DNA from: Planctomycetaceae bacterium
Lineage (GTDB): Bacteria > Planctomycetota > Planctomycetia > Pirellulales > Thermoguttaceae
Direction of reading: 5' to 3'
Assembly: GCA_031268995.1 (NCBI GenBank)
Contig: JAIRWK010000317.1
Span: 1-39,636 of the forward strand
DNA length: 39,636 nt
Shown: piece after piece, positions 5,037 through 39,463 of the stretch
How the letters are laid out: each line of letters opens with the position of its first letter
Position numbering within the stretch: position 1 is the first letter of the stretch
The notes under the pieces: model-generated
Databases searched by the model: none
The model's input: only the letters and a program-made list of their open reading frames with translations
What the model was told of the DNA's origin: nothing
Translations under genes and position numbers: made by a program

Positions 5037-5138
5037 TATACCATAGCCGGTAGGCGATAGGCTTTACCCTTGAACAACCGCTTCACGTTGTTGCGATTGC
5101 GTGTTCAGATTCAGGAATTTTAAAACAGCTTGAGTATA
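5037..5138 (+). mobile_element. ~100-bp TA element
   Basis: Near full-length; fills almost the entire gap between CDS 4624-5031 and CDS 5144-6121. Confidence 0.95.
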
Positions 5139-6130: not shown

Positions 6131-6345
6131 AGGGACATAAAGGACATTAGGGACAAGGTAAAATTTTACCAAACATTATTAAGAAAACAGCTATTATACC
6201 GTAGCCGGTAAGGCGATAGGCTTCGCCCTTGAACAACCGCTTCACGTTGTCGCGCTTGCGTGTCCAGCTTCGGGAATTTTAAAACAGCTTGAGTATAAAT
6301 GATCTATCACGAATACGCTTTGTCCCTAATGTCCTTAATGTCCCT
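6131..6345. repeat. 25-bp inverted repeat (agggacataaaggacattagggaca) split by a TA element
   Basis: 6131-6155 versus reverse complement of 6321-6345: one mismatch in 25. Confidence 0.9.
6195..6297 (+). mobile_element. ~100-bp TA element
   Basis: Full-length; lies between the arms of a 25-bp inverted repeat (6131-6155 / 6321-6345). Confidence 0.95.
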
Positions 6346-6378: not shown

Positions 6379-7113
6379 ATGAGGTTAAAGTTAATAGCGT
6401 GTGAGATTCTTTTTCGTGAGATTAATTTTGTGGTAAAAAATTCGCCGCATGAGGTTGAGGTTGAGTTTCTGGCGAAGGGTTTGCATGATCTTGGCAAAGA
6501 AGGTATGTTTGGCAAATTATTTGAGGCGGTCAATGGTTTTGAAGTGGATGGTTATGATGCAATTTTGCTTGGTTATGGTTTGTGTAGTGGAGGAGTTGTT
6601 GGTTTGCGTGCGGGGCGTGTGCCGATAATTATTCCGCGAGCGCATGATTGTATAACTCTTTTTATGGGAGATCGGTGGCGGTATTTGGAATATTTTTCGG
6701 CGAACAATGGTGTTTATTTTCAAACGACCGGTTGGATAGAGCGTGGCGGCGAGTTGACTCAAAAGTTACCGGATTCGGTTGCGGTGAAACTTGGAATCAA
6801 TCTTACAAAAAACGAATTGAGAGAACGTTACGGCAAGGAGAAAGCCGAATATTTGCACGAACAACTTTCAAGCTTAAAGCATTACACAAAAACAACATTT
6901 ATTGAAACAGGAGTTGAGCCTGACAATTCATTTGAAGATTTTGCCAAAACAGACGCGCAAAAAAGAAATATGAAATTTGAAAAGATCAAAGGCGATCTTT
7001 CTCTACTAAAAAAATTGGTCAACGGCGACTGGAACGACGACGAATTTCTCATCATAAAACCAAATCAACAAATCGCATTTTCTTATGATGACAACATCAT
7101 GAAAAGCCAGTAA
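6379..7113 (+). CDS. DUF1638 domain-containing protein
   Basis: 'YDAILLGYGLCSGGVVGLRAGRVPIIIPRAHDCITLFMG' matches my knowledge of the DUF1638 family. Confidence 0.8.
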   Translation: MRLKLIACEILFREINFVVKNSPHEVEVEFLAKGLHDLGKEGMFGKLFEAVNGFEVDGYDAILLGYGLCSGGVVGLRAGRVPIIIPRAHDCITLFMGDRWRYLEYFSANNGVYFQTTGWIERGGELTQKLPDSVAVKLGINLTKNELRERYGKEKAEYLHEQLSSLKHYTKTTFIETGVEPDNSFEDFAKTDAQKRNMKFEKIKGDLSLLKKLVNGDWNDDEFLIIKPNQQIAFSYDDNIMKSQ

Positions 7114-7115
7114 TA

Positions 7116-7216
7116 TATACTCAGCTACTTTGAAATTCCTGAAGCTGATACGCAATCGCAACAACGTGAAGCGGTTGTTCAGGGGCGAAGCCTATCGCCT
7201 TACCGGCTACGGTATA
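7116..7216 (-). mobile_element. ~100-bp TA element
   Basis: Reverse-orientation full-length copy starting 2 bp after the stop codon of CDS 6379-7113. Confidence 0.95.
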
Positions 7217-7797: not shown

Positions 7798-7834
7798 GAT
7801 TACAGATTTTTTTGAAATTTAATGATTTAATTTG

Positions 7835-7939
7835 ATACCGTAGCCAGTACGGACGGTGGGCTTCACCCTTGAACAACAGCTTCACGTTGTTGCGCTACCG
7901 TGTCCAGTTCCATGAATTTTAAAGTAGCTTTAGTGTATA
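7835..7939 (+). mobile_element. ~100-bp TA element, diverged
   Basis: 'ataccgtagccagtacggacggtgggcttcacccttgaacaacagcttcacgttgttgcgc…ttaaagtagctttagtgtata'; followed by a mini-fragment 'ccgactccggtata'. Confidence 0.85.
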
Positions 7940-7962: not shown

Positions 7963-9165
7963 TCAAGGTAACGATGCAGGATTACCGTCATTTATGTGAG
8001 ACAGGTACTTCAAAATATTATTATTTAATGTTACCGCAACACTGTGAACAGAACCATCACCTAAAAGGAAATTTACAACTCCAGCATGAAAACTGCCGTA
8101 ACTAGGAAGTATAAGATCCATATCACCGTATCCTCCGACTCCATCGGTGGGACCCCTAGCGATAAATTGAGCCTTGATCGGTGCATTTGAGTATCTGGCA
8201 TAGTTAAAACGGCAATTCATCGATGCAAAAAGATATGAACAATCCCATCCATTTGAATCTGTACACGTCCCTACTCTACTTTGTGGAATATACTTCTCTC
8301 CAAGAAGAAACTGATTACTCAAGCCATCCGCTAAATTGTCGAAATTTAGCACGGATTCCCACCTATTAACATCTGCAATTACGGTCGTCAAGAAAAAATT
8401 GACCGAAACCCTAAATGGTCCTGAATTATTGTTATTGTTGTATGATATGACAATATTGTTGATTGGCAGTCCGGGAGACAGGATGAATCCCATTATGTCA
8501 TCCTGTGTTGCTGCAACAACTGCGGCATAATCACCAACGGGACCGGGGAAATACGGATCAGCACCGTCTTTAGGACGGGTAATTTGCGATCCGCCGGTAC
8601 GCCGTGCTGGACACCTATAAATGGAGACCGAACCGAAACCTAATCGGTCTTCTTCTGTCAATTTCGCATCATCAGTACCGGCGGCAGTACCGTTCCACCA
8701 ATCCCTATCTAAAGGTGCCGCGAATGATTCGTCTATATTCCTTTTATTGGATTCGATTTTTGAATAGAGTGCGGTTTGCTCGACGTAAGGATAAAGTAAA
8801 CCAAAAAAGGAAGTCCGGTGAGCATGACCAACATGTATTGGCGGAATGCCGCCTCGTCCGTCGTGAAAATTGTGGATTCCTAAACCCGTCTGTTTCATGT
8901 TATTGGAACAACTCATTCGTCTTGCTGCTTCACGCGCTGCTTGAACTGCGGGTAATAGTAATGCGATCAATGTTCCAATAATCGCTATCACAACCAAAAG
9001 CTCAACAAGCGTAAAACCAAGCATTGAGGGTTTGTTACAAAATTTTAGCCCGCTTGCCCCCCCCCCCCCCCGTTTGCCTATTTTGCCAAAATTAACATCA
9101 AAAATGGCGTAAATAGTATCAGAAAGACGGTGAATGATTCCTGAAATCCGAAAAGTTTTTTTCAT
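7963..9165 (-). CDS. DUF1559 domain protein with type II/IV prepilin N-terminal motif
   Basis: '[45 protein letters not shown]' and C-terminal '[30 protein letters not shown]'. Alternative internal start at 9024. Confidence 0.9.
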
Positions 9166-9853: not shown

Positions 9854-11128
9854 TTAATGGTCATTTATTTTGGGGCAATGCCTAATGTTAGGCAGTAGGT
9901 AAGTTGCCAATCCTAGCAACGGTAATATTGAGCAGGTTTTGAAAACAAAATCTATTCCGTACACATCAGCAACCTTGCCCAAAACAACAGACGCGACTCC
10001 GGCAATCCCAAACGCTAGCCCGAAAAAAAGTCCAGCTACCATACCAACTTTACCCGGCATTAATTCTTGTGCAAAAATTAAAATTGCCGAAAACGCAGAC
10101 GATAAAATAAAGCCAACCAACACACTCAAAACACACGTCCAAAAAAGCGAATCCACAAAAGGTACACAAACCGCAAACGGAAACGATCCCAATATCGAAA
10201 CCCAAATTACATACTTGCGACCCACCCAATCACCAATAGGTCCGCCAATCAACGTACCCGTCGCCGCCGCAAATAAAAATAAAAACAAATATATTTGCGA
10301 ATCACCAACCGAAACACCAAACCGTTCCATCAAATAAAACGTATAAAAACTCCTAAAACACGCTAAATAGACATACTTTGAAAAAATCAAAATCATCAAA
10401 ATAATTAACGACATCACAACCGTTGACCGACTCAACACAACTAAATTCTTGCCCAAAAGATCAACATCCTTATCCTTTTCTGTACGAAAATCATTTAAAT
10501 CATTCGTATTGGCAATTTTGATATTTTCGCGTTGTTTATTCTTATTGCGTGTTTGATTAAAACGGTGCAAATTGTAAGAATACCAACGACAAACCGGTAA
10601 CAACACAATTATCGTGCAAATAACTAATATAGATAACCAAATCGAATGACCATGACCATACGGCGCAATCAAAATTGCCGCGAGTAATGCACCAAAAGAA
10701 CCGCCGACATTGCCGCCAACAAGAAATAAAGATTGAAAAAAACCAACCCGCGTACCTGAAACCAAAAACACTATCCGCGATGCCTCAGGATGAAATACCG
10801 CCGACCCCACCCCAATAAACGCAACAGAAATAAGCACAGCCGCAAAACTATCAGCATACGAAATCAAAACGACACCAATCAAAGTTGACACCATCCCAAA
10901 AGGCAACAAATAAGGAAACGGTCGCTTGTCAGTTACATAACCAACTACGGGTTGACAAATTGACGACGTAAATTGAAAGGTCAAGGTAATAAATCCTATT
11001 TGTGTAAATGTCAATGATAACGTCTCTTTGATCTGCGGATAAATCGCTTGAAAAAACGTTTGAAAAAGATCATTCGCCAAATGCGTAAACGTAAGAACCA
11101 ACACAACCACAATTGAAACCGCTCTCAT
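9854..11128 (-). CDS. fsr: MFS transporter, fosmidomycin-resistance (Fsr)-like
   Basis: 'DLFQTFFQAIYPQIKETLSLTFTQIGFITLTFQFTSSICQPVVGYVTDKRP' and 'GSAVFHPEASR' are Fsr-type signatures. Start placed at internal ATG (11128) because the longer ORF runs into a dispersed repeat. Confidence 0.85.
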   Translation of the reverse strand: MRAVSIVVVLVLTFTHLANDLFQTFFQAIYPQIKETLSLTFTQIGFITLTFQFTSSICQPVVGYVTDKRPFPYLLPFGMVSTLIGVVLISYADSFAAVLISVAFIGVGSAVFHPEASRIVFLVSGTRVGFFQSLFLVGGNVGGSFGALLAAILIAPYGHGHSIWLSILVICTIIVLLPVCRWYSYNLHRFNQTRNKNKQRENIKIANTNDLNDFRTEKDKDVDLLGKNLVVLSRSTVVMSLIILMILIFSKYVYLACFRSFYTFYLMERFGVSVGDSQIYLFLFLFAAATGTLIGGPIGDWVGRKYVIWVSILGSFPFAVCVPFVDSLFWTCVLSVLVGFILSSAFSAILIFAQELMPGKVGMVAGLFFGLAFGIAGVASVVLGKVADVYGIDFVFKTCSILPLLGLATYLLPNIRHCPKINDH

Positions 11129-11152
11129 CGTAAAAATAAAGAAAAATAATGA

Positions 11153-11255
11153 TATACCGTAACCGGTAGGGCAATAGGCTTCGCCCTTGAGCAATCGCTT
11201 CACGTTGTTGCGCTTGCGTGTTCCGCTTCGGGAAATTCAAAACAGCTTGAGTATA
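11153..11255 (+). mobile_element. ~100-bp TA element
   Basis: Full-length copy directly upstream of the fsr-like gene. Confidence 0.95.
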
Positions 11256-11343
11256 TAACAATGATTAAAAATTTTCGACATCAAAAAAATATCCGCGAAC
11301 ACCCATCAAATCTGCGTTATCTGCGTGCTTCTCCCAGAACGTA

Positions 11344-15862: not shown

Positions 15863-15946
15863 TATACCGAAACCGGTATGGGCGGTAGGCTTCGCAATGT
15901 TACGCTTGCGCGTTCAACTTCAGGAATTTTAAAACAGCTTGAGTAC
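15863..15946 (+). mobile_element. ~100-bp TA element with internal deletion
   Basis: 'tataccgaaaccggtatgggcggtaggcttcg|caatgttacgcttgcgcgttcaacttcaggaattttaaaacagcttgagtaca'. Confidence 0.9.
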
Positions 15947-15991
15947 ATTATCGCATGACAAAGATCAGGAAATTTTCAGTAATCCTTTAGC

Positions 15992-16288
15992 GAAAACATA
16001 ACCTCATTTTCACCTAATTTTTTTAACTAAACAACTTCAGTAGCAAATAATTAAAAAAACACTAACCTCATTATACTCAAGCTGTTTTAAAATTCCTGAA
16101 GCTGGACACGCAAGTGTAGCATCGCGAAGCGGTTGTTCAAGGGCGAAGCCTATCGCCTTACCGGCTACGGTATAAACAGGTTTTGTGTTGGCGTGAAATA
16201 ATCAAATTAGGTAATGAGGTTGGGTGTGGGGGGATTCATTGGCTACTGAGGTTGCTTTGTTAAAAAATTAAGTGGAAATGAGGTTTTC
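15992..16288. repeat. long imperfect palindromic repeat interrupted by a TA element
   Basis: 'gaaaacataacctcattttcacctaatttttttaa' pairs with 'ttaaaaaattaagtggaaatgaggttttc'; 'caacttcagtagc' pairs with 'gctactgaggttg'. A related half-copy at 30136-30192. Confidence 0.75.
16072..16174 (-). mobile_element. ~100-bp TA element
   Basis: Full-length reverse copy located near the centre of a larger palindromic repeat. Confidence 0.95.
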
Positions 16289-16373: not shown

Positions 16374-16476
16374 TATACTGAAGCTACTTTAAAATTCCTG
16401 AAACTGAACACGCAAGCGCAACAACGTGAAGCGGTTATTCAGGAGCGAAGCCTATCGCCTTACCGGCTACGGTATA
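16374..16476 (-). mobile_element. ~100-bp TA element
   Basis: 'tatactgaagctactttaaaattcctgaaactgaacacgcaagcgcaacaacgtgaagcggtt…ctaccggctacggtata'-type full-length copy. Confidence 0.95.
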
Positions 16477-17624: not shown

Positions 17625-17632
17625 TAAAAAAA

Positions 17633-17735
17633 TCAGCACGCAGACAACACAGATTGGAAAAGATCAGATTTCGTTTTCAGATCTTGCGAATATCCTGACA
17701 AAATCTGCGTTATCTGCGTGCTTATTTTTTTAATC
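17633..17735. repeat. 'agcacgcaga…tctgcgtgct' hairpin repeat
   Basis: 'atcagcacgcagacaacacagatt…aaaatctgcgttatctgcgtgctta'; between convergent genes. Confidence 0.85.
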
Positions 17736-17781: not shown

Positions 17782-18233
17782 ATCCTATCGCCAACACCGC
17801 CTCCGGTCTGTTTTGCTCTTTGGACGGTGATTTCCAAAGTTGCATTTTTACCTCGTATAACTTCAATATTTGGTGGTTTGGCGGACGATTCGGCGACTAA
17901 ATCTTCTTCGCCGTAGGCTGGAGCGGACGACACACTGATGGTGTAATTGCCAGCCGGAATCCCCGATTTATTCTCTGAGGTTTCCATAACAAAATTTCCG
18001 TTTGGACTAATCCGTCCTATAAACGATTCCGTATCCGTTGATAACATAACCGTACCGTTGGCTAAAGGATTTCCATCATCAAATTTGACATTTCCAGTCA
18101 AAGAGATATTTGAATTGCCGCAACCACAGACTAATACAATAACGAAAAAAGAGTAAAGTAAACGTTTAATAATAATTGTTGAAATTGTTGAAATTTTATA
18201 CCGAAGCCGGTATGGGCGGTAGGCTTCGCCCAT
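17772..18233 (-). CDS. small lipoprotein, carboxypeptidase-regulatory-like; start and stop codons lie in repeat sequence
   Basis: Lipobox 'LLYSFFVIVLVCGCGNSN', 'LTGNVKFDDGNPLANGTVMLSTD…IPAGNYTISVSSAPAYGEED'. The in-frame ATG (18233) lies in the dispersed repeat; TAG at 17772-17774 lies in a repeat remnant. Confidence 0.7.
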   Translation of the reverse strand: MGEAYRPYRLRYKISTISTIIIKRLLYSFFVIVLVCGCGNSNISLTGNVKFDDGNPLANGTVMLSTDTESFIGRISPNGNFVMETSENKSGIPAGNYTISVSSAPAYGEEDLVAESSAKPPNIEVIRGKNATLEITVQRAKQTGGGVGDRIIP

Positions 18234-18384
18234 AAACAATCGCTTCACGTTGTTGCGTTTGCGTGTTCTTTATACCGTAGCCGGGCTTCGCCCTTGAACA
18301 ACCGCTTCGCGATGCTACGCTTGCCCAACGCTCTGTGTTGTAGGTTTACCGTAGCTTCAGGAATTTTAAAACGGCTTGAGTATG
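18197..18384 (+). mobile_element. composite of two TA element copies (18197-18268 truncated, then 18271-18384 variant)
   Basis: Two 'tataccg…' starts in tandem; the second copy carries the variant segment 'cccaacgctctgtgttgtaggtttaccg'. Confidence 0.85.
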
Positions 18385-19537: not shown

Positions 19538-19811
19538 TTTAATTTCTCCTTTAAGAAATTTGAAAACTGGAAATAGTTTGGCAACAGTTGCCAAACTTTT
19601 TGGAAAACACAACAAGTCATACCACAGACTTTCCCTTGTGTCCGCCAATAATTTTACTTCCAATATGTTAAGAAAATATTAAGAGAATATTAAGATTGCG
19701 TTAAGTTTTAAAATTTTTTCTGTATTCTCAAATAACACCTAAAATGAAAATTCACCAGACAAATATACCAAAGAAAATTTCCCAATATCTTTTACCTTAT
19801 CCTGTTTAAAG

Positions 19812-19922
19812 AATCAGCACGCAGACGACGCAGATTGTTAAAGATATTCGCGAGATCAGATTTTATTTTCCGATCTTGCGATTATCCTTACAAAATCGCG
19901 TTATCTGCGTGCTGATTTTTAA
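19812..19922. repeat. 'agcacgcaga…tctgcgtgct' hairpin repeat
   Basis: 'aatcagcacgcagacgacgcagatt…aaaatcgcgttatctgcgtgctgattt'. Confidence 0.85.
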
Positions 19923-20827: not shown

Positions 20828-20900
20828 ATCGCAGATCAGATTTCATTTTCTGATCTTGCGAATATACTTTTCAAATTGCGTCGTCTGCGTGCCAAAAATT
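20828..20900. repeat. 'agcacgcaga…tctgcgtgct' hairpin repeat, one arm truncated
   Basis: 'atcgcagatcagatttcattttctgatcttgcgaatatacttttcaaattgcgtcgtctgcgtgcca'. Confidence 0.75.
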
Positions 20901-21391: not shown

Positions 21392-21596
21392 TTCGTTAAT
21401 CCTCCAAAATTTATTCCAATATTCTCCAACCCCAAAAATACCACAAAAACCAGCACAAATAAAAGGCTTCGGGAATCTTTACGCAGTACAGTAAACAACT
21501 TGATCACGGTACAAAATTTCCACACAACACAGAAGAGTCGACCATTTTAACACACACCGCCAACACGACAAGCCCCCAACTTCCTATTTGCCAAAA

Positions 21597-21675
21597 ACAA
21601 ATTATTTTCAAATTTGGTCGATTTTATTCGATAGAAATCGACCAAATTCGAATAAAATCAACTTTTAGAAATTCT
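21597..21675. repeat. 'ggtcgattt…atcgatagaaatcgacc' palindromic repeat
   Basis: 'tttggtcgattttattcgatagaaatcgaccaaattcgaataaaat'. Confidence 0.85.
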
Positions 21676-21872: not shown

Positions 21873-21974
21873 TATACTCAAGCTGTTTTAAAATTCACTA
21901 AGCTGGACACGCAAGCGCAACAACGTGAAGCGGTTGTTTAGGGGCGACACCTATCGCCTACCGGCTACGGTATA
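21873..21974 (-). mobile_element. ~100-bp TA element
   Basis: Full-length reverse copy ending 26 bp before the purL ATG. Confidence 0.95.
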
Positions 21975-22000: not shown

Positions 22001-25000
22001 ATGCTTTGGGAAATAACTATTCTGCCAGCGGATAGCCAACTCGATATACACGGTGCCGCCATAACACACGATGCCACCGATCTCGGCTTCACTGATCTGA
22101 AAATCAATTCCGCCTACGGATACTTGATCGAAGGGAATTGCTCCGAACAACAAATCCACAACATCACCGAAAATTTGCTCGCAGATAAAATCGTTGCCAA
22201 AACCAATATCCGCAAAATTGAGCCGACCCCAATTGATCAAAACCCAAAAACACAACCCGACAATATTATCTACATATTGCCCAAGGTCGGCGTAACCGAT
22301 ACTGTTGCCGAAAACGTTAAACAAGTTATGGAAGATTGGGGAATCAACGCCCGCGCCGTTAGAACCTTCAAAAAATACTACATCACAAGCTCAAATAAAA
22401 ATAACATAAAAGGAATTATTGCAGATTCGGTCGATTGTCAGTCGATAGAAAACGACCAAAATCGACCGAAATCTGTTTTCAAAAATTCACTGGAATTACT
22501 CGCGACAAAATTGCTCGCGAACGATGCAGTTGAACAAGTCGTTTTTGGTGAATTGCCATTCGATCACTTGTTGCCCAACCCCATAACATCACAATCACAA
22601 TACGACGAAATTGCCCTCAAACAAAATTTGCCACACTCCCACTCCGAACATAAATTTGACCTGATCACCGTCCCACTCCTCAATATGAACGATCAGGAAC
22701 TCCTACTCCTCAGCACAAATAAACAACTTTACTTGTCCCTCGCCGAATTGCAAACAATTAAATCCGAATTTCATAAACTCGACCGTAACCCCACCGATAT
22801 TGAACTCGAAACAATCGCCCAAACTTGGAGCGAACATTGCTCCCACAAAACCCTCGCCGGACACATCCACTACACCAAACATAACCCCGACGGAACAACC
22901 ACTACACGCATGTTCAATAACATGCTCAAAGAAACCATCTTCGCCGCAACCGAAAAACTAATCGCCGAAAACCCATACATCGCTAAACATTGCATCAGCG
23001 TCTTCTCCGATAACGCCGGTATCGTCGCCTTCGACAATAACTACAACGTTTGCTTCAAAGTCGAAACCCACAACCACCCGTCCGCCCTCGAACCCTACGG
23101 CGGCGCAAATACCGGACTCGGCGGCGTAATCAGAGACCCTATGGGTACAGGTCTCGGCGCAAAACCAATCGCAAACACAAACGTATTCTGCTTCGCACCA
23201 CCCAATACCACCGATGATAAAATCCCCACCGGCGTTTTGCACCCACGCCGAATCATGAAAGGTGTCGTCGCCGGCGTCCGAGACTACGGTAACAGAATGG
23301 GCATCCCAACCGTCAACGGCGCAGTCTATTTCGATGAACGATACCTCAATAACCCACTCGTCTTTTGCGGTAACATAGGGATATTGCCCAAAAATAAATC
23401 CTTCAAATCAACACAACATAACGACCTCATCGTAGTCGTCGGAGGTAAAACCGGTCGAGACGGCATACACGGCGCAACCTTCAGTAGCACCGAATTAACA
23501 AGCGAAAGCGAATCCGTGTCCGGCGGCGCAGTACAAATCGGTAACGCCATAACAGAAAAAATGGTTCTCGACATAATGTTAATAGCACGCGATCAAGAAT
23601 TGTATAATGCTGTTACAGATTGCGGCGCAGGAGGATTGTCCAGCGCAATCGGCGAAATGGGAGAAAAAATAGGCGCAACCGTCGAATTGTCAAACACTCC
23701 CCTAAAATACGAAGGACTAACCTACTCCGAAATATGGATATCAGAATCCCAAGAACGAATGGTATTCGCCGTACCAGCCGAAAAATGGGAAAAATTCAAA
23801 AAACTTTGCAACTCCGAAAACGTTGAAGCAACCGCACTGGGAAAATTCGAACCAACCGGAAAACTAATATTGAAATTCCACAACCAAATCGTCGCAAATA
23901 TCAATATGGAATTTCTACACAAAGGACGACCACCAGTCATAAGAAAAGCAATATACTCTCAACCTTACACAAAACTAAATGCTACGGAAAATAATGTTGC
24001 GGAAAATAATTTGCCCAATAATACCACTTGCAAAAAAAATAATAAAACCGGCGAATCCTACCTGTCCGACCTCAAACAAATACTAAGCTCCCCCAACATC
24101 GCCAGCAAACATTGGATCATCCGACAGTACGATCACGAAGTTCAAGGCGGAAGCATCATCAAACCACTCATCGGCTTAAATAACGACGCACCAAGCGACG
24201 CAGCTGTTGTTCGACCACTCCTCAACTCACGCAAAGGATTGGTAATCGCTTGCGGAATGAACCCACTCTTCGGAGACCTCGACATCTACCGCATGGCAGC
24301 CTCCGGCATCGATGAAGCCATCCGAAACGCCATCGCCGTCGGTGCAGAATTGCAATCAATCGTCATCCTCGATAACTTCTGTTGGGGAAATACCGAAAAA
24401 CCAGAAACATTAGGTAGCCTGGTCGAAGCCGCTATCGCTTGTTACGACACTTCCGTCGGATTCGGTACACCATTCATCAGCGGTAAAGATAGCCTAAATA
24501 ACGAATTTCGTACACTAGACAAAAAAAATGCCGCCATCCCGCCAACATTGCTAATCTCAGCAATGGGACAAATAAACGACATCGCAAATTGCATAACAAT
24601 GGACCTCAAACAAAAAAATAATATACTCTACCAAATCGGCACAACAAAAAATGAACTCGGAGGCTCACACTTCGCAATACTACACAACCTCAAAAACAAT
24701 ACCACCCCAACTCTCGATATCCCAACCGCACGAAAACTCTACGAATCCTTGAATACCGCCGTTTACGAAGGATTGGTCGAAAGCTTGCACGACTTGAGCG
24801 AAGGGGGATTAGCCGTCGCCATCGCCGAAATGTGCTTCGGAGGAAACCTAGGCGCAACCCTAAATAATAACCTCGACGAAATAACTCTATTCAGCGAATC
24901 AAATAGCAGATTCGTTGCCGAAATTCACCCAAATAACACCACAAAATTCGAATCCATCTTCAACTCACAACCAATCAAAAAAATCGGTTACGTAACAGAT

Positions 25001-25087
25001 AAAAAACAAATCCAGTTCGGAAATCTATTCACCGCACAAATCAACGAACTAAAAAACGCTTGGCAATCAACTCTAGATTTCAAATAA
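22001..25087 (+). CDS. purL: phosphoribosylformylglycinamidine synthase with PurS-like N-terminus
   Basis: 'TQTWSEHCSHKT'-like motif (AQTWSEHCSHKTLAGH), 'FKVETHNHPSALEPYGGANTGLGGVIRD', 'GKTGRDGIHGATFSS', 'SGKDSLNNEF', 'HDLSEGGLAVAIAEM'. Confidence 0.97.
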   Translation: MLWEITILPADSQLDIHGAAITHDATDLGFTDLKINSAYGYLIEGNCSEQQIHNITENLLADKIVAKTNIRKIEPTPIDQNPKTQPDNIIYILPKVGVTDTVAENVKQVMEDWGINARAVRTFKKYYITSSNKNNIKGIIADSVDCQSIENDQNRPKSVFKNSLELLATKLLANDAVEQVVFGELPFDHLLPNPITSQSQYDEIALKQNLPHSHSEHKFDLITVPLLNMNDQELLLLSTNKQLYLSLAELQTIKSEFHKLDRNPTDIELETIAQTWSEHCSHKTLAGHIHYTKHNPDGTTTTRMFNNMLKETIFAATEKLIAENPYIAKHCISVFSDNAGIVAFDNNYNVCFKVETHNHPSALEPYGGANTGLGGVIRDPMGTGLGAKPIANTNVFCFAPPNTTDDKIPTGVLHPRRIMKGVVAGVRDYGNRMGIPTVNGAVYFDERYLNNPLVFCGNIGILPKNKSFKSTQHNDLIVVVGGKTGRDGIHGATFSSTELTSESESVSGGAVQIGNAITEKMVLDIMLIARDQELYNAVTDCGAGGLSSAIGEMGEKIGATVELSNTPLKYEGLTYSEIWISESQERMVFAVPAEKWEKFKKLCNSENVEATALGKFEPTGKLILKFHNQIVANINMEFLHKGRPPVIRKAIYSQPYTKLNATENNVAENNLPNNTTCKKNNKTGESYLSDLKQILSSPNIASKHWIIRQYDHEVQGGSIIKPLIGLNNDAPSDAAVVRPLLNSRKGLVIACGMNPLFGDLDIYRMAASGIDEAIRNAIAVGAELQSIVILDNFCWGNTEKPETLGSLVEAAIACYDTSVGFGTPFISGKDSLNNEFRTLDKKNAAIPPTLLISAMGQINDIANCITMDLKQKNNILYQIGTTKNELGGSHFAILHNLKNNTTPTLDIPTARKLYESLNTAVYEGLVESLHDLSEGGLAVAIAEMCFGGNLGATLNNNLDEITLFSESNSRFVAEIHPNNTTKFESIFNSQPIKKIGYVTDKKQIQFGNLFTAQINELKNAWQSTLDFK
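22424..22488. repeat. 'ggtcgatt…atcgacc' palindromic repeat within purL
   Basis: 'gattcggtcgattgtcagtcgatagaaaacgaccaaaatcgaccgaaatctgttttcaaaaattc' inside the coding sequence. Confidence 0.75.
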
Positions 25088-25779: not shown

Positions 25780-25885
25780 AATTTTTAAATGACAAAAAGG
25801 GACACAAAGGAAATAAGGCACTGCCCGAAAATATTTTTTCCCAAATTTCACAAAAAACACTAAAATACAAATGTGTATTGATTGT

Positions 25886-25988
25886 TATACCGTAGCCGGT
25901 AGGGCGATAGGCTTCGCCCTTGAGCAACCGCTTCACGTTGTTGCGCTTGCGTGTTCCGCTTCGGGAATTTCAAAACAGCTTGAGTACA
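25886..25988 (+). mobile_element. ~100-bp TA element in a filled site
   Basis: Element 25888-25986 flanked by TA / CA; flanks match an uninterrupted copy of the same background sequence at 34220-34324. Confidence 0.95.
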
Positions 25989-26051: not shown

Positions 26052-26140
26052 ACTCCCATTTGCCAAAAACAAACTATTTCAAATTCAGTCGATTTTAAAT
26101 CGATAGAAATCGACCCAATCCGAATAAAATTATTTTTTAA
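26052..26140. repeat. 'ggtcgattt…atcgatagaaatcgacc' palindromic repeat
   Basis: 'gccaaaaacaaactatttcaaattcagtcgattttaaatcgatagaaatcgacccaatccgaataaaat'. Confidence 0.85.
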
Positions 26141-26345
26141 AAAAATTCCCCAAACCCGAAATCGGCTTATTGAAAAAAAAAATCTACTTTGTACAATTAC
26201 CGAACTTTTTAAGTTTAGTTGCCGACAGCGGCGGAATTGTAGCCCAAAAAAAAATTTTTCCAAGCACAAACCGCATAATCCACAACTAGCCTTAATCGGG
26301 AATTATCGTTTTTGAAATCGAATCGAAATTAGTATTAGGCGGTTC

Positions 26346-26448
26346 TATACTGAAGCTACTTTAAAATTCCTGAAGCTGAACACGCAAGCGCAACAACGTG
26401 AAGCGGTTGTTCAAGGGCGAAGCCTATCGTCCTACCGGCTACGGTATA
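26346..26448 (-). mobile_element. ~100-bp TA element
   Basis: Full-length reverse copy upstream of the DtxR-family gene. Confidence 0.95.
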
Positions 26449-27100: not shown

Positions 27101-27113
27101 TCAATACAAAAAT

Positions 27114-27222
27114 ATAGCACGCAGATGACACAGAGCAGAGAATGATATTCGCAAAATCAGAGAATAAATCAGATCCGCGAACACCTTTAAAATCTGCGTT
27201 TTCTGTGTGCCAATATTTTTAA
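27114..27222. repeat. 'agcacgcaga…tctgcgtgct' hairpin repeat
   Basis: 'atagcacgcagatgacacagagcag…aaaatctgcgttttctgtgtgccaat'; between convergent genes. Confidence 0.85.
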
Positions 27223-27230
27223 AAGGGAAA

Positions 27231-28139
27231 TTATTTCAACGGAACAAAAGTCCAATCAAATTGCTTGTCTGGTTGGATTGTGAGCAAACGAAATCCATAA
27301 GGACGCTTGTCGAAATTTTTGCTCGTCGTCTCGCCATTCAAAATAGTAATTTTGCCATGCTTGCGTTTCAACGTCTTATGCAAATGACCAGATAACCAAA
27401 TAATAACACCACTTTGCTCAAACTTCTCAAGTAACTCACCCCGCTTGATCTTAGGAATATTGTGATAATCGTCCTTCTCGTCAGCACTCGACACAAACGG
27501 CGGAATATGCGTAATCAAAATTATAGGTATACCGATGTCGGTATGGGCGGTAGGCTTCGCCCTTGAACAATCGCTTCGCGATGCTACGCTTGCGTCAGCT
27601 TCAGGAATTTCAAAACAGCTTGAGTATACATTGCCCCTCCTCGCCTTTTGCAAAGATTCACTCAATAACTTTTCATGCCGCTCAACCTCACCCGCCGGAG
27701 CCTTGCGCCACAGTTGAGAATTAGCAGATATTAACACCCAACCCTTGCACTCCAACGTATTAAAATCATTGCCAAAAATACGCCTATAACGCTCCAACCC
27801 CTCCGCCGTTACCGGATCTGGTAAATCATGATTGCCCGCAGTCAATAAAACCGGCGGCTTTAACTTGGCAATCTGCCCCTTAATCGCAACTACCTCCCGC
27901 TCACTCTTAATATCATTCACCATGTCCCCAGCAATAACCACAACATCCGGCGAAAGCTGATTGACTTGCCGAACCGCTTGCTCAAAACGCGCTAAATCCG
28001 CATCAAATCCACCCATCCCCAATTGCGGATCACACAAATGCACCACAACCAACTTCCCCAACTCCTCACAACACACCAACCGCTGATTAACAACAACACT
28101 CAAAAAAATAACTAACACAACCAAAATACACTTTTTCAT
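27231..28139 (-). CDS. calcineurin-like metallophosphoesterase, with in-frame repeat insertion
   Basis: 'VVVHLCDPQLG', 'DVVVIAGDMVND', 'LLTAGNHDLPDP', 'IILITHIPPF', 'IIWLSGHLHKT'; residues 'VYSSCFEIPEADASVASRSDCSRAKPTAHTDIGI' are encoded by a repeat copy. Confidence 0.9.
   Translation of the reverse strand: MKKCILVVLVIFLSVVVNQRLVCCEELGKLVVVHLCDPQLGMGGFDADLARFEQAVRQVNQLSPDVVVIAGDMVNDIKSEREVVAIKGQIAKLKPPVLLTAGNHDLPDPVTAEGLERYRRIFGNDFNTLECKGWVLISANSQLWRKAPAGEVERHEKLLSESLQKARRGNVYSSCFEIPEADASVASRSDCSRAKPTAHTDIGIPIILITHIPPFVSSADEKDDYHNIPKIKRGELLEKFEQSGVIIWLSGHLHKTLKRKHGKITILNGETTSKNFDKRPYGFRLLTIQPDKQFDWTFVPLK
27528..27628 (+). mobile_element. ~100-bp TA element, in frame inside the metallophosphoesterase gene
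   Basis: 'tataccgatgtcggtatgggcggtaggcttcgcccttgaacaatcgcttcgcgatgctacgcttgcgtcagcttcaggaatttcaaaacagcttgagtata'. Confidence 0.95.
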
Positions 28140-28275: not shown

Positions 28276-28378
28276 TATACTCAAGCTGTTTTGAAATTCC
28301 CGAAGCGGATCACGCAAGCGCAACAACGTGAAGCGGTTGCTCAAGGGCGAAGCCTATCGCCCTACCGGCTACGGTATA
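28276..28378 (-). mobile_element. ~100-bp TA element
   Basis: Full-length reverse copy abutting the nadB stop codon (28379-28381). Confidence 0.95.
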
Positions 28379-29998
28379 TCAGATTATTTCTTTGTTTACT
28401 ATGGTGGTGTGTTGGGCGTTGGGGGATTTTTGGGAGTAGTCTTCTCGGTTGTGGGCACCTCTCGTTTCACACCTTGATAACGCACCCTCAAGTATTAAAC
28501 GCGCGACAATAAGCATGTTCTGAACCTCCCAACCCGCAACATCCGAAAAATTTTGCGACAAAATATATCTTGACCATTGCAACGTGTCATCAAACGCAAC
28601 TCTCAAATTGTTGCCGTCCCTTATCACTCCCGCCGTCCGCCAAAGTAAACTCTTAAGCGAATTACCAATATCAGCTAAATCAATCCGCTCCGGCAACTGC
28701 AACGCCTGATCCATCGGCGGTAACGGCCTGCTTTCTATCGGTTCAACATCACAGTCGTTCGTCATCGTTTGGGCAATCCTTGACGCTCCACGCCCCGCCG
28801 ATTCGCCATACACCAACGATTCCAAAAGACTATTCGACGCAAGACGATTCGCACCATGCAACCCCGTACTCGAAACCTCACCCGCCGCCCATAAACCACT
28901 CAATGTCGTTCGACCCTCCATATCAACCAATACCCCGCCCATCGCAAAATGTGTACCCGGACGAACAGGTATCCTGTCCTTGCTCACATCAATTCCAAAA
29001 CGTTGGCAAGTCGCCGCAATACCCGGAAAACGAGAATAAATCCACTCCTTCGGTTTGTGCGTCAAATCAAGATACACATTCGACGCATTGGTCTTCTGCA
29101 AATGACGCACAATACTCAAACTGACAACATCACGCGGTGCTAAATCACCACGCGAATCATAATCACGCATAAACTCATAGCCACCCCGATCAACAAGCCG
29201 CGCCCCCTCACCACGCATCGCCTCCGAAATCAAACTGCGACTACTGCCCGCAATATATAAAACCGTCGGATGAAATTGAACAAACTCCATGTCCCTAATC
29301 TCAGCACCCGCACGAAACGCCATCGCAACACCATCACCAGTCGCAATCGAAGGATTAGTCGTCTCCCTATAAACTTGACCAATCCCACCACTCGCCAATA
29401 TCGTCTGCTTCGCCCAAATAAGCTCCTTCTCACTATGCCGCTTCCAATAAACTATCGCACCACGACAACTACCACCAAAAGTCAAAAGATCCAACGCAAA
29501 CGTGTCCTCCCAAATCCGAATGTTAGGACGCTTGCGCAACTCCACAATCAACGACCGCATTAACTCTCGCCCCGTCGAATCACCATTGGCATGCAATATC
29601 CGATCACGACAATGACCACCCTCACGACCAAGCATCATCTCACCACCACTAGCCCGATCAAACTTCGTACCAAACTCTATCAACTTGCGAATCTCAAAAG
29701 GTCCACGATTGACAACATGCTCAACCACAGACCTGTCACAAAGCTCGCCGCCCGCAATAATCGTGTCCTCAACATGCTCCCCAAACGTGTCCGACTCCGA
29801 CCAAACCGCCGCTATACCACCTTGCGCATTGACACTATTTGAATTGTCAAGCCCATCCTTGCAAACCAAAAGAACATTGAGAGAAGGATCAACCGCCAAC
29901 GCCGCACGACAACCCGCTAAACCACCGCCTACAACCAACACATCAGTAAAAAAATGCGGATGACGCTTAGGATGAAATGGAACAAGATACCTCAACAT
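28379..29998 (-). CDS. nadB: L-aspartate oxidase
   Basis: 'DVLVVGGGLAGCRAALAV', 'NSVNAQGGIAAVW', 'GEHVEDTIIAGGELCDRSVV', 'HFAMGGVLVDMEGRTTLSGLWAAGEVSSTGLHGANRLASNSLLE'. Confidence 0.95.
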   Translation of the reverse strand: MLRYLVPFHPKRHPHFFTDVLVVGGGLAGCRAALAVDPSLNVLLVCKDGLDNSNSVNAQGGIAAVWSESDTFGEHVEDTIIAGGELCDRSVVEHVVNRGPFEIRKLIEFGTKFDRASGGEMMLGREGGHCRDRILHANGDSTGRELMRSLIVELRKRPNIRIWEDTFALDLLTFGGSCRGAIVYWKRHSEKELIWAKQTILASGGIGQVYRETTNPSIATGDGVAMAFRAGAEIRDMEFVQFHPTVLYIAGSSRSLISEAMRGEGARLVDRGGYEFMRDYDSRGDLAPRDVVSLSIVRHLQKTNASNVYLDLTHKPKEWIYSRFPGIAATCQRFGIDVSKDRIPVRPGTHFAMGGVLVDMEGRTTLSGLWAAGEVSSTGLHGANRLASNSLLESLVYGESAGRGASRIAQTMTNDCDVEPIESRPLPPMDQALQLPERIDLADIGNSLKSLLWRTAGVIRDGNNLRVAFDDTLQWSRYILSQNFSDVAGWEVQNMLIVARLILEGALSRCETRGAHNREDYSQKSPNAQHTTIVNKEII

Positions 29999-32856: not shown

Positions 32857-33076
32857 TATACCGAAGCCGGTATGAGTGATAGGCAACAACCACGCTTTCA
32901 CGTTGTTATACTTGCCTAACGTTCTGCGTTGCTTGTTTATACCGACACCGGTATGGGCGGTAGGGTTCGCCCATGAACAACCGCTTCGCGATGCTACGCT
33001 TACGTGTTCAGCTTCGGGAATTTTAAAACAGCTTGAGTTTACCACAGCTTCGGGAATTTAAAAACAGTTTGGGTAT
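32857..33076 (+). mobile_element. diverged TA element (outer copy) interrupted by an inner copy
   Basis: Outer left part 32857-~32938 and right part ~33041-33076 ('ccacagcttcgggaatttaaaaacagtttgggtata'). Confidence 0.75.
32938..33041 (+). mobile_element. inner TA element nested in the outer copy
   Basis: 'tataccgacaccggtatgggcggtagggttcgcccatgaacaaccgcttcgcgatgctacgcttacgtgttcagcttcgggaattttaaaacagcttgagttta'. Confidence 0.9.
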
Positions 33077-33083
33077 AGTCCGG

Positions 33084-33185
33084 TATACCGTAGCCGGTAG
33101 GGCGATAGGCTTCGCCCTTGAACAACCGCTTCACGTTGTTGCGCTTGCGTGTTCAGCTTCAGGAATTTTAAAACAGCTTCAGTAT
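33084..33185 (+). mobile_element. ~100-bp TA element
   Basis: Full-length copy just downstream of the nested pair. Confidence 0.95.
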
Positions 33186-33496
33186 GTCCCTTCGCCCGTT
33201 ATCGACATATTATTTTTGAAACCAGTCAATTATACGCGAAAAATACGGTTACAACGGGCATACCCATTTTTTCGTTACAGTAATATCTATACTCTGCAAA
33301 AACGGAATTGATTATAACAAATATATTCACCAGAACAATCGCCCCAGTAAGATCGAAATATGACTTTTTAAAATCAGCACGCGGATAACGCGGACTATTA
33401 ATGCATCGCCCTCAAATAATTTTCCCAAAATAAAAAAGTGGCAAGTGGTGAGTGTCTAGGCGAAACTTCCCAATATCGGACACGTGTTAGCATAAA

Positions 33497-33605: not shown

Positions 33606-33750
33606 CAAATCTGACCCACCACTTTCTTTGGAATCTGGTTATTTGCGTGCTGATTTTTTTAGGACGATTAGGGGGGGTTGTCAGGTTACGTTGTACTGAT
33701 AGAATGTTCGCTCTTTTGGATTAGCATTGGCTTGAAATTTGTGTTGTTTT

Positions 33751-33833
33751 GTACTCAAGCTGTTTTAAAATTCCGAAAGCTGAACGCGCAAATGCAACAT
33801 CGTGAAACACCGCCCATACCGGCTAGGTGTATA
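33751..33833 (-). repeat. internally deleted TA element
   Basis: 'gtactcaagctgttttaaaattccgaaagctgaacgcgcaaatgcaacatcgtgaaac|accgcccataccggctaggtgtata'. Confidence 0.85.
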
Positions 33834-33878
33834 ATTCAGTATAACTTCAACTCAGTCCCCAAAATAAGGTAAAATATA

Positions 33879-34193: not shown

Positions 34194-34422
34194 GATGTTG
34201 TCCTGAAATAAAATTACCGTTAGGCACTGCCCGAAAATATTTTTCCCTCAATTTCACAAAAAACACTGAAGCACAAGCGTGTATTGATTATTAATGGTAC
34301 ATTTATTCATCGGCGATGTCTTACTGCCCTAAAGGGATTGCTAAAAACTCATTTTAGTCCTGTAACGGTAGCGTCCTCGTTTCCGTTACAGGTGTTTTTT
34401 AGAGCCTCCCTAAAGGAAACTT

Positions 34423-34543
34423 CCTCAAGCCGCTTTAATTTCCGAAGTTGCGGTAAACCTGCAACGCATAGCGTTGGACAAGCGTAACAGCGAGAAGCGG
34501 TTGTTCAAGGGCGAAGTCTGTTGCATGTATTGACTTCGGTGTA
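34423..34543 (-). repeat. diverged TA element, variant subfamily
   Basis: Reverse complement contains 'gacttcgcccttgaacaaccgcttctcgctgttacgcttgtccaacgctatgcgttgcaggtttaccgcaacttcgg'. Confidence 0.8.
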
Positions 34544-35970: not shown

Positions 35971-36013
35971 AAAATACTTTTGCCAAAAAAATTTTTTGGA
36001 GGAAATTTATCTG

Positions 36014-39000
36014 ATGAGAAATTGCTTTATTATTTGTGTGGTGATTTTGTTTTTTATTATTTTGGGCAATGATTTAATTTGTGCGGAACGGGATCGCGAG
36101 CGGGTGCGGGAGCGTTTTTGGCAAATTCTGGTTGAATCGCCGCGTCGAGGCGCAACATTTGATCGTGTCTATAATTATTATGCGGAATCAAATGCAGTCG
36201 ATCAACTTATAGACAAAGGTTTGGAGTTATCGAGGCAAAAGCCGGATGTTGCGGGTTCGTGGGTTTTACTTGGTTTGATTTATGAGCGTTGCGGTGAGTT
36301 GGGGAGTGGGATTGAGGCGTTTAGGCGGGCAGTTGAGATCAATAAATTTGATTCGTTGGTGTTTTATTATCTTGGCGAAATGTTGATCGCGCAAGGAAAT
36401 TTGCGAGAAGCGGCGGATGTGTTGGATAAGGCATTGCAAAATAAACCGGCGAATAAACATGAGCTTCGGTCTATTCTTTTATTGTTGGGCAAGACATCGG
36501 AGCGCTTGGGTGATTCAAGAAAAGCCGATGCCGTTTGGTCGCAACTCGAACAACTTTACCCGAACAACCCCGAAATAATTACCGTAATAACAAGTATTCT
36601 TGAAGCGGAGGGGCGGATTGACGAAGCGATAAAGCGGTACGAACGATATCTGAAAGTTCAGCCTAGCGGTTATAATTTTGTCCGATTTAAGTTGGCGGTG
36701 ATTGGGTTGAATATGCGGGCGGGCGAGGGATTTTCGCCGGTTGGTGATTATGCGGAGTTGTTGGACAAGGTTGATGCGGGTGGTTGGATGGCGGAGATTG
36801 TTAGGAGGCGTTTGGAGCTGTATTTTTCAGAGCGAAATGATTTTGTCGGGCTTGCGAATTTTTATGAAAAGCGATTGCGAGATCACCCAAACGAACCCGC
36901 CGTGATTCTGCAACTCGCAAATTTGTTTGTAAAACTTGATCGCAAAACGGATGCGTTGGAGTTGCTTAACGGTTCTATTGAGAAATTTCCCAAAGATGTT
37001 TTATTGCGGCGGGCAATAATTGATATTTACGTCACAGAAAATAATTTTGATAAAGCAATCACGCAATACCAACAAATCATCTCAATTACTCCCGCCGATT
37101 CAAGTGTTCTGATTGCTTGGGGCGAGTTGGTTATGAAAACGGAGCGGGCGGACAAACGCGGCGAAGCTGCAAAAATCTGGTCGCGGTTAATTGATTTATC
37201 GCCGAATGATCCGTTAGTTGCGATTCGGGTTGCGGAGTTAGCGGCGAAGTATGGTATGGTTGAGTTTGCGGAAAAATATTACAAACGGGCGGTAGTTTTG
37301 CGTCCTGATGATGCGGCGTTTCGCGAGTATCTTGGTTTTTTTTATTACAGTCAGTCCGAATTCAAAAAGGCTGTCGAAACAATTCAATCAATCGCCGAAG
37401 GTGAACGAAAAAACGCCGAAACTCTCGTCCTCGCCGGAACTTTACTCCAATCAATTCAAGCCGAAACGGAAGCCTTCAACGCATTTGAAAACGCCGTAAA
37501 AATTGCTCCAAAAAATCCAATGATAAAATTGAAATATATTGAATCATTGATTCGCCGTCATGAAATTGATCGCGCAATTTCGCAATTGATTGAGTCCGAT
37601 CAATTGATTATAAGCGACGATGAGTTTGATATGTTTTTGCGCAACGAAATTAGAATTGTGTTGCGAAGTTCGCAGATGGACAATATTTTGAGCAAATTGA
37701 CAAATGAAAGTTTAGAAAAATCGTCCAATATACCGAAGCCGGTATGGGCGGTAGGCTTCGCCCATGAACAACCGCTTCGCGATGCTACGCTTGCGTGTTC
37801 AGTTTCGGGAATTTCAAAACAGCTTGAGTATAATATTGCAACAAAAAAGCCGCGGCAGAGATTATATTGGCGGCTTGCGGTTTACAATCAATACGCGGGC
37901 AAAAGTGAAGTTGCGGTTAAAATGATGGATGCCGCGATTGAATATGTTGAAGTTATGCCGGATACGGTGTCGTTGCGAATATTGCAAACGGCGGCTGAGC
38001 TTTACGCGACTTGCGGCGCGGCGGATAAAGCGGTCAAATTTTTACAAATACTCGCAGCCCAAAATAACATAATGCAACCCGTATATCTTCGGCAACTTGC
38101 GGAATTGCAAATTAAAACTGGCGACCAAAACGCCGCTGCCCAAACGGTTGACCGTTTATTTAACTCCGGTACCGCCAATACAACAACCACAATATCAACT
38201 GCCGAATTGCTTCTCAATTTGGGACGAATAAAAGACGCAATTGATCTGTTGCGGCGAAGTTCGCGTTCAAAGCCGAATGAATTATTGATACAAAAAATGC
38301 TCATCGAATATTTGGCAAAAGACGGACAAACAAAAAACGCAATTGATGCGGCGTTGCGTTTATTTGACCGGCTTGACGACGTGGAGGGCAAAATGCAGTT
38401 GGCGAAATTGACGGCGGAATATTGTAAGGCTATCGGCGACAACGAAAAAAATATTGACGGCACAAAAAACGCTGAAAAATTTAGAAATGATAAGTTGCGT
38501 GAATTATTGTACAAAATAAGAATTTTGCCTGGCAAGCGTTTATCTGTGCTTTGTGTTGCGAGCGTGTTTGAGGTTTTGGAGGATTTTGTTTCGGCGCGGT
38601 CGGAGCTTGAGGGATTTTTCATTTTGTCCGAAGGAAAGCAGAACGCGGATAAATTATTGTTACAAAAATTAGTAACTGTTACGAAAAAATTACACGACTA
38701 CGAGGCGGCGGTCAAATATCAAGAATTGATTTGCAAAAATCATTCGGATTCGGCGGAATTTGACAAGTTATTTATACTCTACGATCTTGCTGGTAACCGC
38801 GAAAAAAGCTCGCAACTGTTCATGCAACAAATATTAAATAAAACCGAAATCAATGAACAAATTATAATGATTGACAGAATGATTTGTCGTGAGGAGTATG
38901 ATGCGGTTGAGCATGTGCTTGCGTTTTTTGAGATACATGAGGAGCTGAATTGGGAGATAATGTATCGGCAAATAGTAATCGCCGCATACAAAAAACAGAA

Positions 39001-39463
39001 AAATTTGCCCGAACTAGTACAAAAATTCCGCAAACAAAAATTCGTCAACAACGCCGTGAATAACCACAATAAACACACGCCCGATGATCAATTGACAAAA
39101 TATCTCAAAGATCAATTCAACAACAACGCATGGATTTTATCGGACAATTTACCGACGAATGATTTTAGTATTTGGGGCAAAGATTCGGAGATGTTGTCGA
39201 TTTTCAGGCAACAGGAGATTTTTTTATTGACATTGTGTGGTGAGCGGTTGTGGCGTAATCCAAATTATCGTACATTTAATAACGTTCCGCCGCCCAAGCC
39301 GTTTTATTATATTGATAATTTTTCGGATGCGAAATTTTTTGCGTTATGTTGGTTGTTACGGGAAGAGGACGCAGACAAAATTATTCACAACAACGAAATA
39401 ACCGGCGACGAAACAAAACGCCTAAAAGCATTATCAGAATCCCTGAAAAAAAATACACCGTAG
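36014..39463 (+). CDS. large exported TPR-repeat protein with in-frame repeat insertion
   Basis: Multiple TPR units (e.g. 'SWVLLGLIYERCGELGSGIEAFRRAVEINKFDSLVFYYLGEMLIAQGNLREAADVLDKAL'); GGAGG upstream of ATG 36014; residues 'IPKPVWAVGFAHEQPLRDATLACSVSGISKQLEY' are encoded by a repeat copy. Confidence 0.85.
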   Translation: MRNCFIICVVILFFIILGNDLICAERDRERVRERFWQILVESPRRGATFDRVYNYYAESNAVDQLIDKGLELSRQKPDVAGSWVLLGLIYERCGELGSGIEAFRRAVEINKFDSLVFYYLGEMLIAQGNLREAADVLDKALQNKPANKHELRSILLLLGKTSERLGDSRKADAVWSQLEQLYPNNPEIITVITSILEAEGRIDEAIKRYERYLKVQPSGYNFVRFKLAVIGLNMRAGEGFSPVGDYAELLDKVDAGGWMAEIVRRRLELYFSERNDFVGLANFYEKRLRDHPNEPAVILQLANLFVKLDRKTDALELLNGSIEKFPKDVLLRRAIIDIYVTENNFDKAITQYQQIISITPADSSVLIAWGELVMKTERADKRGEAAKIWSRLIDLSPNDPLVAIRVAELAAKYGMVEFAEKYYKRAVVLRPDDAAFREYLGFFYYSQSEFKKAVETIQSIAEGERKNAETLVLAGTLLQSIQAETEAFNAFENAVKIAPKNPMIKLKYIESLIRRHEIDRAISQLIESDQLIISDDEFDMFLRNEIRIVLRSSQMDNILSKLTNESLEKSSNIPKPVWAVGFAHEQPLRDATLACSVSGISKQLEYNIATKKPRQRLYWRLAVYNQYAGKSEVAVKMMDAAIEYVEVMPDTVSLRILQTAAELYATCGAADKAVKFLQILAAQNNIMQPVYLRQLAELQIKTGDQNAAAQTVDRLFNSGTANTTTTISTAELLLNLGRIKDAIDLLRRSSRSKPNELLIQKMLIEYLAKDGQTKNAIDAALRLFDRLDDVEGKMQLAKLTAEYCKAIGDNEKNIDGTKNAEKFRNDKLRELLYKIRILPGKRLSVLCVASVFEVLEDFVSARSELEGFFILSEGKQNADKLLLQKLVTVTKKLHDYEAAVKYQELICKNHSDSAEFDKLFILYDLAGNREKSSQLFMQQILNKTEINEQIIMIDRMICREEYDAVEHVLAFFEIHEELNWEIMYRQIVIAAYKKQKNLPELVQKFRKQKFVNNAVNNHNKHTPDDQLTKYLKDQFNNNAWILSDNLPTNDFSIWGKDSEMLSIFRQQEIFLLTLCGERLWRNPNYRTFNNVPPPKPFYYIDNFSDAKFFALCWLLREEDADKIIHNNEITGDETKRLKALSESLKKNTP
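37729..37832 (+). mobile_element. ~100-bp TA element, in frame inside the TPR protein gene
   Basis: 'tataccgaagccggtatgggcggtaggcttcgcccatgaacaaccgcttcgcgatgctacgcttgcgtgttcagtttcgggaatttcaaaacagcttgagtata'. Confidence 0.95.

Follow-up and report, generated by a model that had tools for sequence, protein, structure and literature searches.

An IS630-type MITE carried in frame within unrelated protein genes of a Planctomycetaceae bacterium

Several kinds of small mobile repeat in bacteria are known to be fused in frame to genes, and the 107-bp Correia elements, the enterobacterial repeat units and the Rickettsia palindromic elements (RPE) are described cases among bacterial MITEs (PMC2229807, PMC2759123, PMC10969869). 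The 107-bp form of the Correia/NEMIS element of Neisseria has two open frames and is fused in frame to many ORFs, and the 155-bp length class stays out of ORFs (PMC2229807). RPE are mobile-type repeats of 105-150 bp that lie in frame in conserved Rickettsia protein genes, and a guanylate kinase bearing one was shown to be active (PMC2229807, PMC10969869); whether they duplicate a target is uncertain, and they do not generally end in TA (PMC2229807). The enterobacterial repeats ERIC/RU-1 and YPAL/RU-2 are small and MITE-like and keep open frames in annotated genes (PMC2759123). The RUP element of pneumococcus is a 107-bp MITE with TA at its termini that is attributed to an IS630 transposase; it is intergenic and has stops in all six frames (PMC2229807). 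Transposition of the IS630 type into TA with duplication of the TA is established for ISY100, which uses a DDE transposase (PMC2170065).

The element described here works like the Correia, RPE, RUP and enterobacterial repeats, and we do not claim that it belongs to the Correia or RPE family. It resembles Correia in its length of ~105 bp, in having TA at both ends with target duplication, in its high copy number and in its insertions in transposase genes (PMC2229807), but it occupies another host phylum, its length classes lie one base apart (103 and 104 bp), four of its frames are used, and Correia counts of 20 to over 120 (PMC10969869) fall far below the copy number estimated here. The sequence-only reading of this DNA had named RPE as the nearest precedent, and the comparison is apt, since both insert in frame in unrelated protein genes (29 in-frame open copies in our sample); the present element differs in its IS630-type ends, TA duplication, use of both strands and want of a consistently strong palindrome. 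It shares size class, TA termini and IS630 affinity with RUP but not the confinement to intergenic DNA, and it differs from ERIC/RU-1 and YPAL/RU-2 in its hosts and in number, those being individual cases against roughly 130 extrapolated in-frame insertions. The same reading had put the element forward as a candidate for an undescribed kind of system, a claim that is not supported, open-frame MITEs fused to genes being known (PMC2229807, PMC2759123, PMC10969869); for the present lineage, a limited search of the open-access literature found no description. The novelty lies in the lineage and the scale, in length classes one base apart that serve as an internal control, and in the quantified frame filtering with an unconstrained peptide.

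The window, by which we mean the whole 39,636-nucleotide stretch analysed, had been read as containing a mobile element, its ends transposon-like, that sits in frame within three unrelated genes and is read in a different frame in each. With the copy at 37729-37832 as query, nhmmer places the other two at 3273-3376 (E = 1.7e-22) and 27528-27628 (8.5e-24), all on the forward strand and where that reading had put them. The three host ORFs stay open through the element and are unrelated, the encoded peptides are those quoted earlier, and three frames are in use: the copy at 3273 is read at antisense offset 0 (YAEATLKF...), that at 27528 at antisense offset 2 (YSSCFEIP...) and that at 37729 at sense offset 1 (IPKPVWAV...). 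The copies are 104, 101 and 104 bp long. Because the TA target is duplicated, the net gain is the length minus 2, so that a 104-bp copy contributes 102 bp, or 34 codons; the three net insertions are thus 102, 99 and 102 bp, each divisible by three. Orthologues from the same genus are missing exactly those 33-34 residues, rather than sharing them as a conserved segment would require, and once the inserts are removed the three proteins align to their relatives with no gap at the junction.

Each host illustrates this in its own way. The TPR protein of 1155 residues (35996-39463, +) carries the insert as residues 579-612, which add IPKPVWAVGFAHEQPLRDATLACSVSGISKQLEY, and orthologues in G019, G020, G004 and G017 (57-64% identity) span the site uninterrupted. 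The large membrane protein of 1336 residues (470-4480, -), which matches no Pfam family, holds its insert at residues 369-402 and without it aligns to five relatives at 49-58% identity. Its target site was a Tyr codon, the junction reading ADIV|YDK in most relatives, and Tyr now stands at either end of the insert, as TA duplication predicts. The calcineurin-like metallophosphoesterase of 302 residues (27231-28139, -) has gained 33 residues (172-204) from a copy with an internal deletion of 3 bp, and without them it aligns to the G019 and G015 proteins at 55.7-56.6% identity. In its structural model the insert forms a low-confidence loop (pLDDT below 50) that joins the helix at 149-168 to the strand at 206-210; the core elements are intact, and the predicted fold continues to agree with metallophosphoesterases of solved structure.

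The ends and the duplicated target identify the element as a MITE of the IS630/Tc1-mariner type: it is short, has no transposase gene and occurs in many dispersed copies. Its left end reads TATACCG(T/A)AGCC and its right end AAAACAGCTTGAGTATA, and the terminal inverted repeats are imperfect over ~11 bp (left TATACCG(T/A)AGC, right in reverse complement TATACTCAAGC). The genome contains remnants of IS630-family transposase genes of the DDE_3 type (PF13358) whose last codons run straight into AAATCTAAAACAGCTTGAGTATA, with the IS end TCTAAAACAGCTTGAGTATA, and which start upstream with TATAC(C/T)G(T/C)...CTACTATGAAATTCCT. The right end is identical between remnants and element over 17 bp and the first 11 bp of the left end match, and the element's ends are therefore those of an IS630-type insertion sequence; an intact parent would have the ends TATACCGTAGC / AAAACAGCTTGAGTATA. 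One such remnant (L128) is itself interrupted by a copy of the element, reading TACTT-TA-TACC...GTA-TA-CTAAC where uninterrupted remnants read TACTCTACTAAC, which establishes the TA target duplication. At the protein level, the orthologues provide empty sites. The preferred target is TTAA.

TA targeting and duplication are features shared with ISY100 and the IS630 family, and remnants with the element's own ends lie in the same genome. The element differs from that family in having no transposase gene and, beyond the ends, no significant internal similarity to the resident IS; derivation as an internal deletion of the IS was rejected on this ground. Searches of the genome's own assembly (86% complete), its genus and other element-bearing genomes for an intact parent transposase yielded only fragments, interrupted genes or more distant relatives. 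Given the incompleteness of the assembly an intact copy may be missing or may have been lost, and with none found the element may no longer move. A structured RNA was also considered and rejected: the window gave no Rfam match, and fold z-scores among copies range from +1.0 to -3.3, not consistently better than shuffles.

The window holds ~25 matches in all, most of them beside genes or away from them. Outside long ORFs lie copies at 32938-33041 (+), 33084-33186 (+), 16072-16174 (-) and 16374-16476 (-), together with 103-bp copies at 6195-6297 (+), 25886-25988 (+) and 26346-26448 (-). Two further 103-bp copies touch gene ends, one intergenic and abutting the 3' end of a FAD-binding protein ORF (28276-28378, -; ORF 28379-29998, -) and one at the 5' end of an MFS ORF (11153-11255, +; ORF 9854-11203, -). 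Copies at 5037-5138 (+) and 21873-21974 (-) lie immediately upstream of ORF 5144-6121 and of a PurL-like ORF (22001-25087, +), respectively; that at 7116-7216 (-) adjoins the 3' end of ORF 6379-7113, and that at 7834-7939 (+) is immediately downstream of a DUF1559 ORF (7963-9165, -). The remainder are altered forms: a copy with an internal deletion (15863-15947, +), two copies at 18197-18384 (+), one beside or interrupted by the other, and degraded copies at 33750-33836 (-) and 34419-34543 (-), the latter longer at ~125 bp.

Other repeats share the window. A palindromic repeat of ~90 nt (GGTCGATTTTATTCGATAGAAATCGACC...) occurs at 21582-21671, 26054-26143 and 22396-22485, one copy falling within the start of the PurL-like ORF. 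Another dispersed family, with motifs AGCACGCAGA-GACGCAGAT and GATCTTGCGAATAT / TCTGCGTTATCTGCGTGC, has sites at 353-447, 11284-11328, 17627-17721, 19808-19902, 20832-20882, 27108-27210 and 33368-33405, and a 72-nt repeat (AGGCACTGCCCGAAAATATTTTT...) is present in two copies that are 88% identical (25816-25887 and 34222-34293).

The genome is a fragmented metagenome assembly of 4.19 Mb in 438 contigs. A base-by-base scan of 917,472 bp (~22% of the genome, including contigs picked for length or known matches) found 572 matches on both strands, covering 5.9% of bases. Extrapolation gives roughly 2,600 copies genome-wide, ~6% of the DNA, a figure that may be somewhat high since the sample includes contigs chosen as long or match-bearing. 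With at most 2 mismatches allowed, the right-end pattern GAATTTYAAAACAGCTTGAGTATA has 1,086 occurrences genome-wide and a reversed-pattern control has 0. Lengths have modes at 103 and 104 bp, and a longer subfamily of 124-126 bp has ~22 extra internal bases (GCCTAACGCTCTGCGTTGCAGGTTTACCGC). Divergence from the subfamily consensus is ~7% in the younger subfamily and ~13% in the older.

Across the family the element is patchy, with one massive expansion. The right-end pattern is present in only 4 of 119 family genomes, with counts of 1,086 in the window's own genome, 37 in the congeneric G012, 28 in G131 from a different genus and 1 in G128, and BLAST adds copies in same-genus G013, G014 and G019. 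A scan of named genomes, among which the window's own record may be missing, found the element end in the MAGs Planctomycetaceae bacterium Gsp477_bin66 and Gx481_bin193; the former appears to be G131, as the within-contig positions agree. The style of these bin names suggests that the genome probably comes from a termite gut. The 28 right ends of G131 stand against 0 in the other genomes of its genus, g55. Such patchiness across genera points either to horizontal transfer of the element or to cross-contamination of MAGs obtained from similar samples. Spread by viruses was rejected, the conserved element end having no exact match in a viral contig collection.

Evidence on what happens to the element in genes comes from 397 full-length copies, each cut out to leave one TA in a procedure blind to element length. 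ORFs were called by length, a long ORF being at least 150 codons with at least 40 on each side of the empty site. Only 37 of the 397 empty sites (9.3%) fall in long ORFs, where 61% of TA sites taken at random would lie (odds ratio 0.066). Those that do are distinctive in length: 32 of the 37 are frame-preserving against 135 of the 360 elsewhere (p = 1e-9), and 29 are open through the element and in frame. The exceptions disappear as ORF thresholds rise, and at 250 codons with 80 each side all 23 of 23 copies keep the frame and are open. Where copies within genes have other lengths (83, 95, 95, 101 and 122 bp), these too all preserve the frame. Tabulated by frame and length, as the sequence-only reading had proposed, the copies thus bear out frame preservation within genes but not for the family at large, whose commonest length of 103 bp gains a net 101 bp and shifts the frame; this class contributes 0 open copies in genes. 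Relatives' proteins provide a separate view, spanning 18 of the cut-out sites: every one of the 11 copies whose match reaches 79 bits is open and in frame. The four disrupted copies in this comparison are weak matches of 35-58 bits.

The size of the deficit can be gauged against an expectation for genes built from the non-gene copies, the TA flank preference and codon phase. Open 104-bp copies number 24 against ~28 expected if they were harmless, an expectation that uses the openness of decayed copies and becomes ~45 with consensus openness. For disrupting 104-bp copies 3 are seen and ~104 expected, for 103-bp copies 4 and ~227, and for disrupting insertions overall 7 and about 330. By our estimate, survival relative to the neutral level is about one-half to four-fifths for open insertions and ~2% for disrupting ones. 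Hosts elsewhere in the genome include UvrA-like, S1-like, UbiD-like, HAD, histidine kinase and short-chain dehydrogenase proteins, and by extrapolation there would be ~130 in-frame insertions genome-wide. Four proteins carry two independent in-frame copies each (L111:16685-19930, L103:3384-6482, L088:3666-5324 and L110:9410-11359). The copy in a HAD hydrolase (L109:9833-9954) is partly duplicated internally (SGCSSGCSG) and contains additional bases, yet still comes to a multiple of three.

These results are very probably explained by an IS630-type MITE that inserted at random TA sites and was then filtered by purifying selection, leaving translated but passive inserts. The transposase of an IS630-family IS, now decayed in this genome, would have recognized TATACCG(T/A)AGC...AAAACAGCTTGAGTATA and mobilized the element. 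Copies were presumably pasted into TA dinucleotides with duplication of the TA, as the shared ends and duplication show for the sites described, and would have landed both within and between genes. Selection would then have removed frame-shifting or stop-bearing insertions and left those in frame and open, a step for which the statistical evidence is strong. From the conservation of frame, the survivors are likely to be translated as extra, mostly loop-like segments of their hosts, and they do no evident job, their amino-acid sequence being free apart from stops in the 22 copies compared. Since only exact, stop-free blocks of ~34 residues survive in genes, many ordinary proteins in this genome probably carry a passive insert derived from a transposon.

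The behavior of the peptide bears directly on this reading. Relative to the subfamily consensus, 22 in-gene 104-bp copies show 71 synonymous, 197 non-synonymous and 0 stop changes; the expectation, taken from non-gene copies read in the same frames, is 54, 154 and 12. On these 22 copies the in-gene peptide drifts freely except that stops are avoided, although the zero is in part a product of scoring open ORFs only; disrupted ORFs were looked for and are nearly absent. The element had been proposed to be readable in at least three frames, and across the sampled genome four are used by in-gene copies (sense 1 ten times, antisense 2 eleven, antisense 0 seven and sense 2 once). It is not specially rich in open frames, an idea that was rejected: the consensus of the 104-bp form has 2 of 6 frames fully open, which is not above shuffles (P = 0.18-0.24).

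Two readings would give the 104-bp lineage a larger part. One, which we consider doubtful, holds that the lineage was split by a single base into a gene-compatible 104-bp form and its sister, that a core change opened a new frame, and that about a hundred proteins were then seeded near-neutrally. The other, which seems to us improbable, holds that the 104-bp lineage was itself selected for several open frames and so spreads harmlessly through genes. The latter draws on the restriction of open in-gene copies to 104 bp and other frame-keeping lengths, and on the younger variant with an RDAT core, which is common in genes and whose core change makes antisense frame 2 open, as it is in 30 of 33 non-gene copies. 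The same core, however, closes antisense frame 0 (6 of 33 open versus 33 of 58), the number of open frames in the consensus is what shuffles give, the frames used are roughly what TA codon phase and openness would predict, and the majority of 104-bp copies are still outside genes. RDAT is the core in 8 of 10 sense-frame-1 in-gene copies, all those that are clear, and the more hydrophobic HVVA in none, both cores being open there; this excess is weak evidence given the small numbers.

Domestication of the inserted peptides, whether for a new function common to the hosts or as a tag for regulation, is very unlikely. The breadth of unrelated hosts, from UvrA-like and ribosomal-S1-like to UbiD-like, HAD and histidine kinase proteins, might be read in its favor. 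Against it, the four frames yield unrelated peptides, amino-acid changes occur as often as they do in copies that are non-coding, and both modelled inserts are low-confidence and unstructured, the metallophosphoesterase loop being one and the other lying in a HAD host whose model is poor overall. With four frames in use and no amino-acid constraint, a functional domain was rejected.

It is hard to credit that a metagenome assembler wrongly joined repeats into genes, even in an assembly of 438 contigs in which ~100-bp repeats are a known hazard: chimeric joins would not respect the frame in 23 of 23 cases, duplicate a TA or leave seamless orthologous sequence on both sides, and the copies have diverged by 7-13% or more from the consensus of their subfamily. 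That similar peptides recur in many proteins could suggest an ancient protein domain of homologous genes, a reading already refuted by the position of most copies outside ORFs, the use of both strands and several frames, the ends matching an IS630 element and the orthologues without the segment.

In-frame MITE insertion has been known from small sets of cases, and here a single genome appears to hold ~100 or more independent insertions of 34 residues, with the frame-shifting 103-bp sister form available as a built-in control alongside the chance expectation. If the one-base split of lineages were true, the genome would amount to a natural insertion-tolerance scan of a bacterial proteome. It allows one to ask how often bacterial proteins tolerate a random 34-residue insertion, and the results suggest that the persistence of such inserts needs no function.
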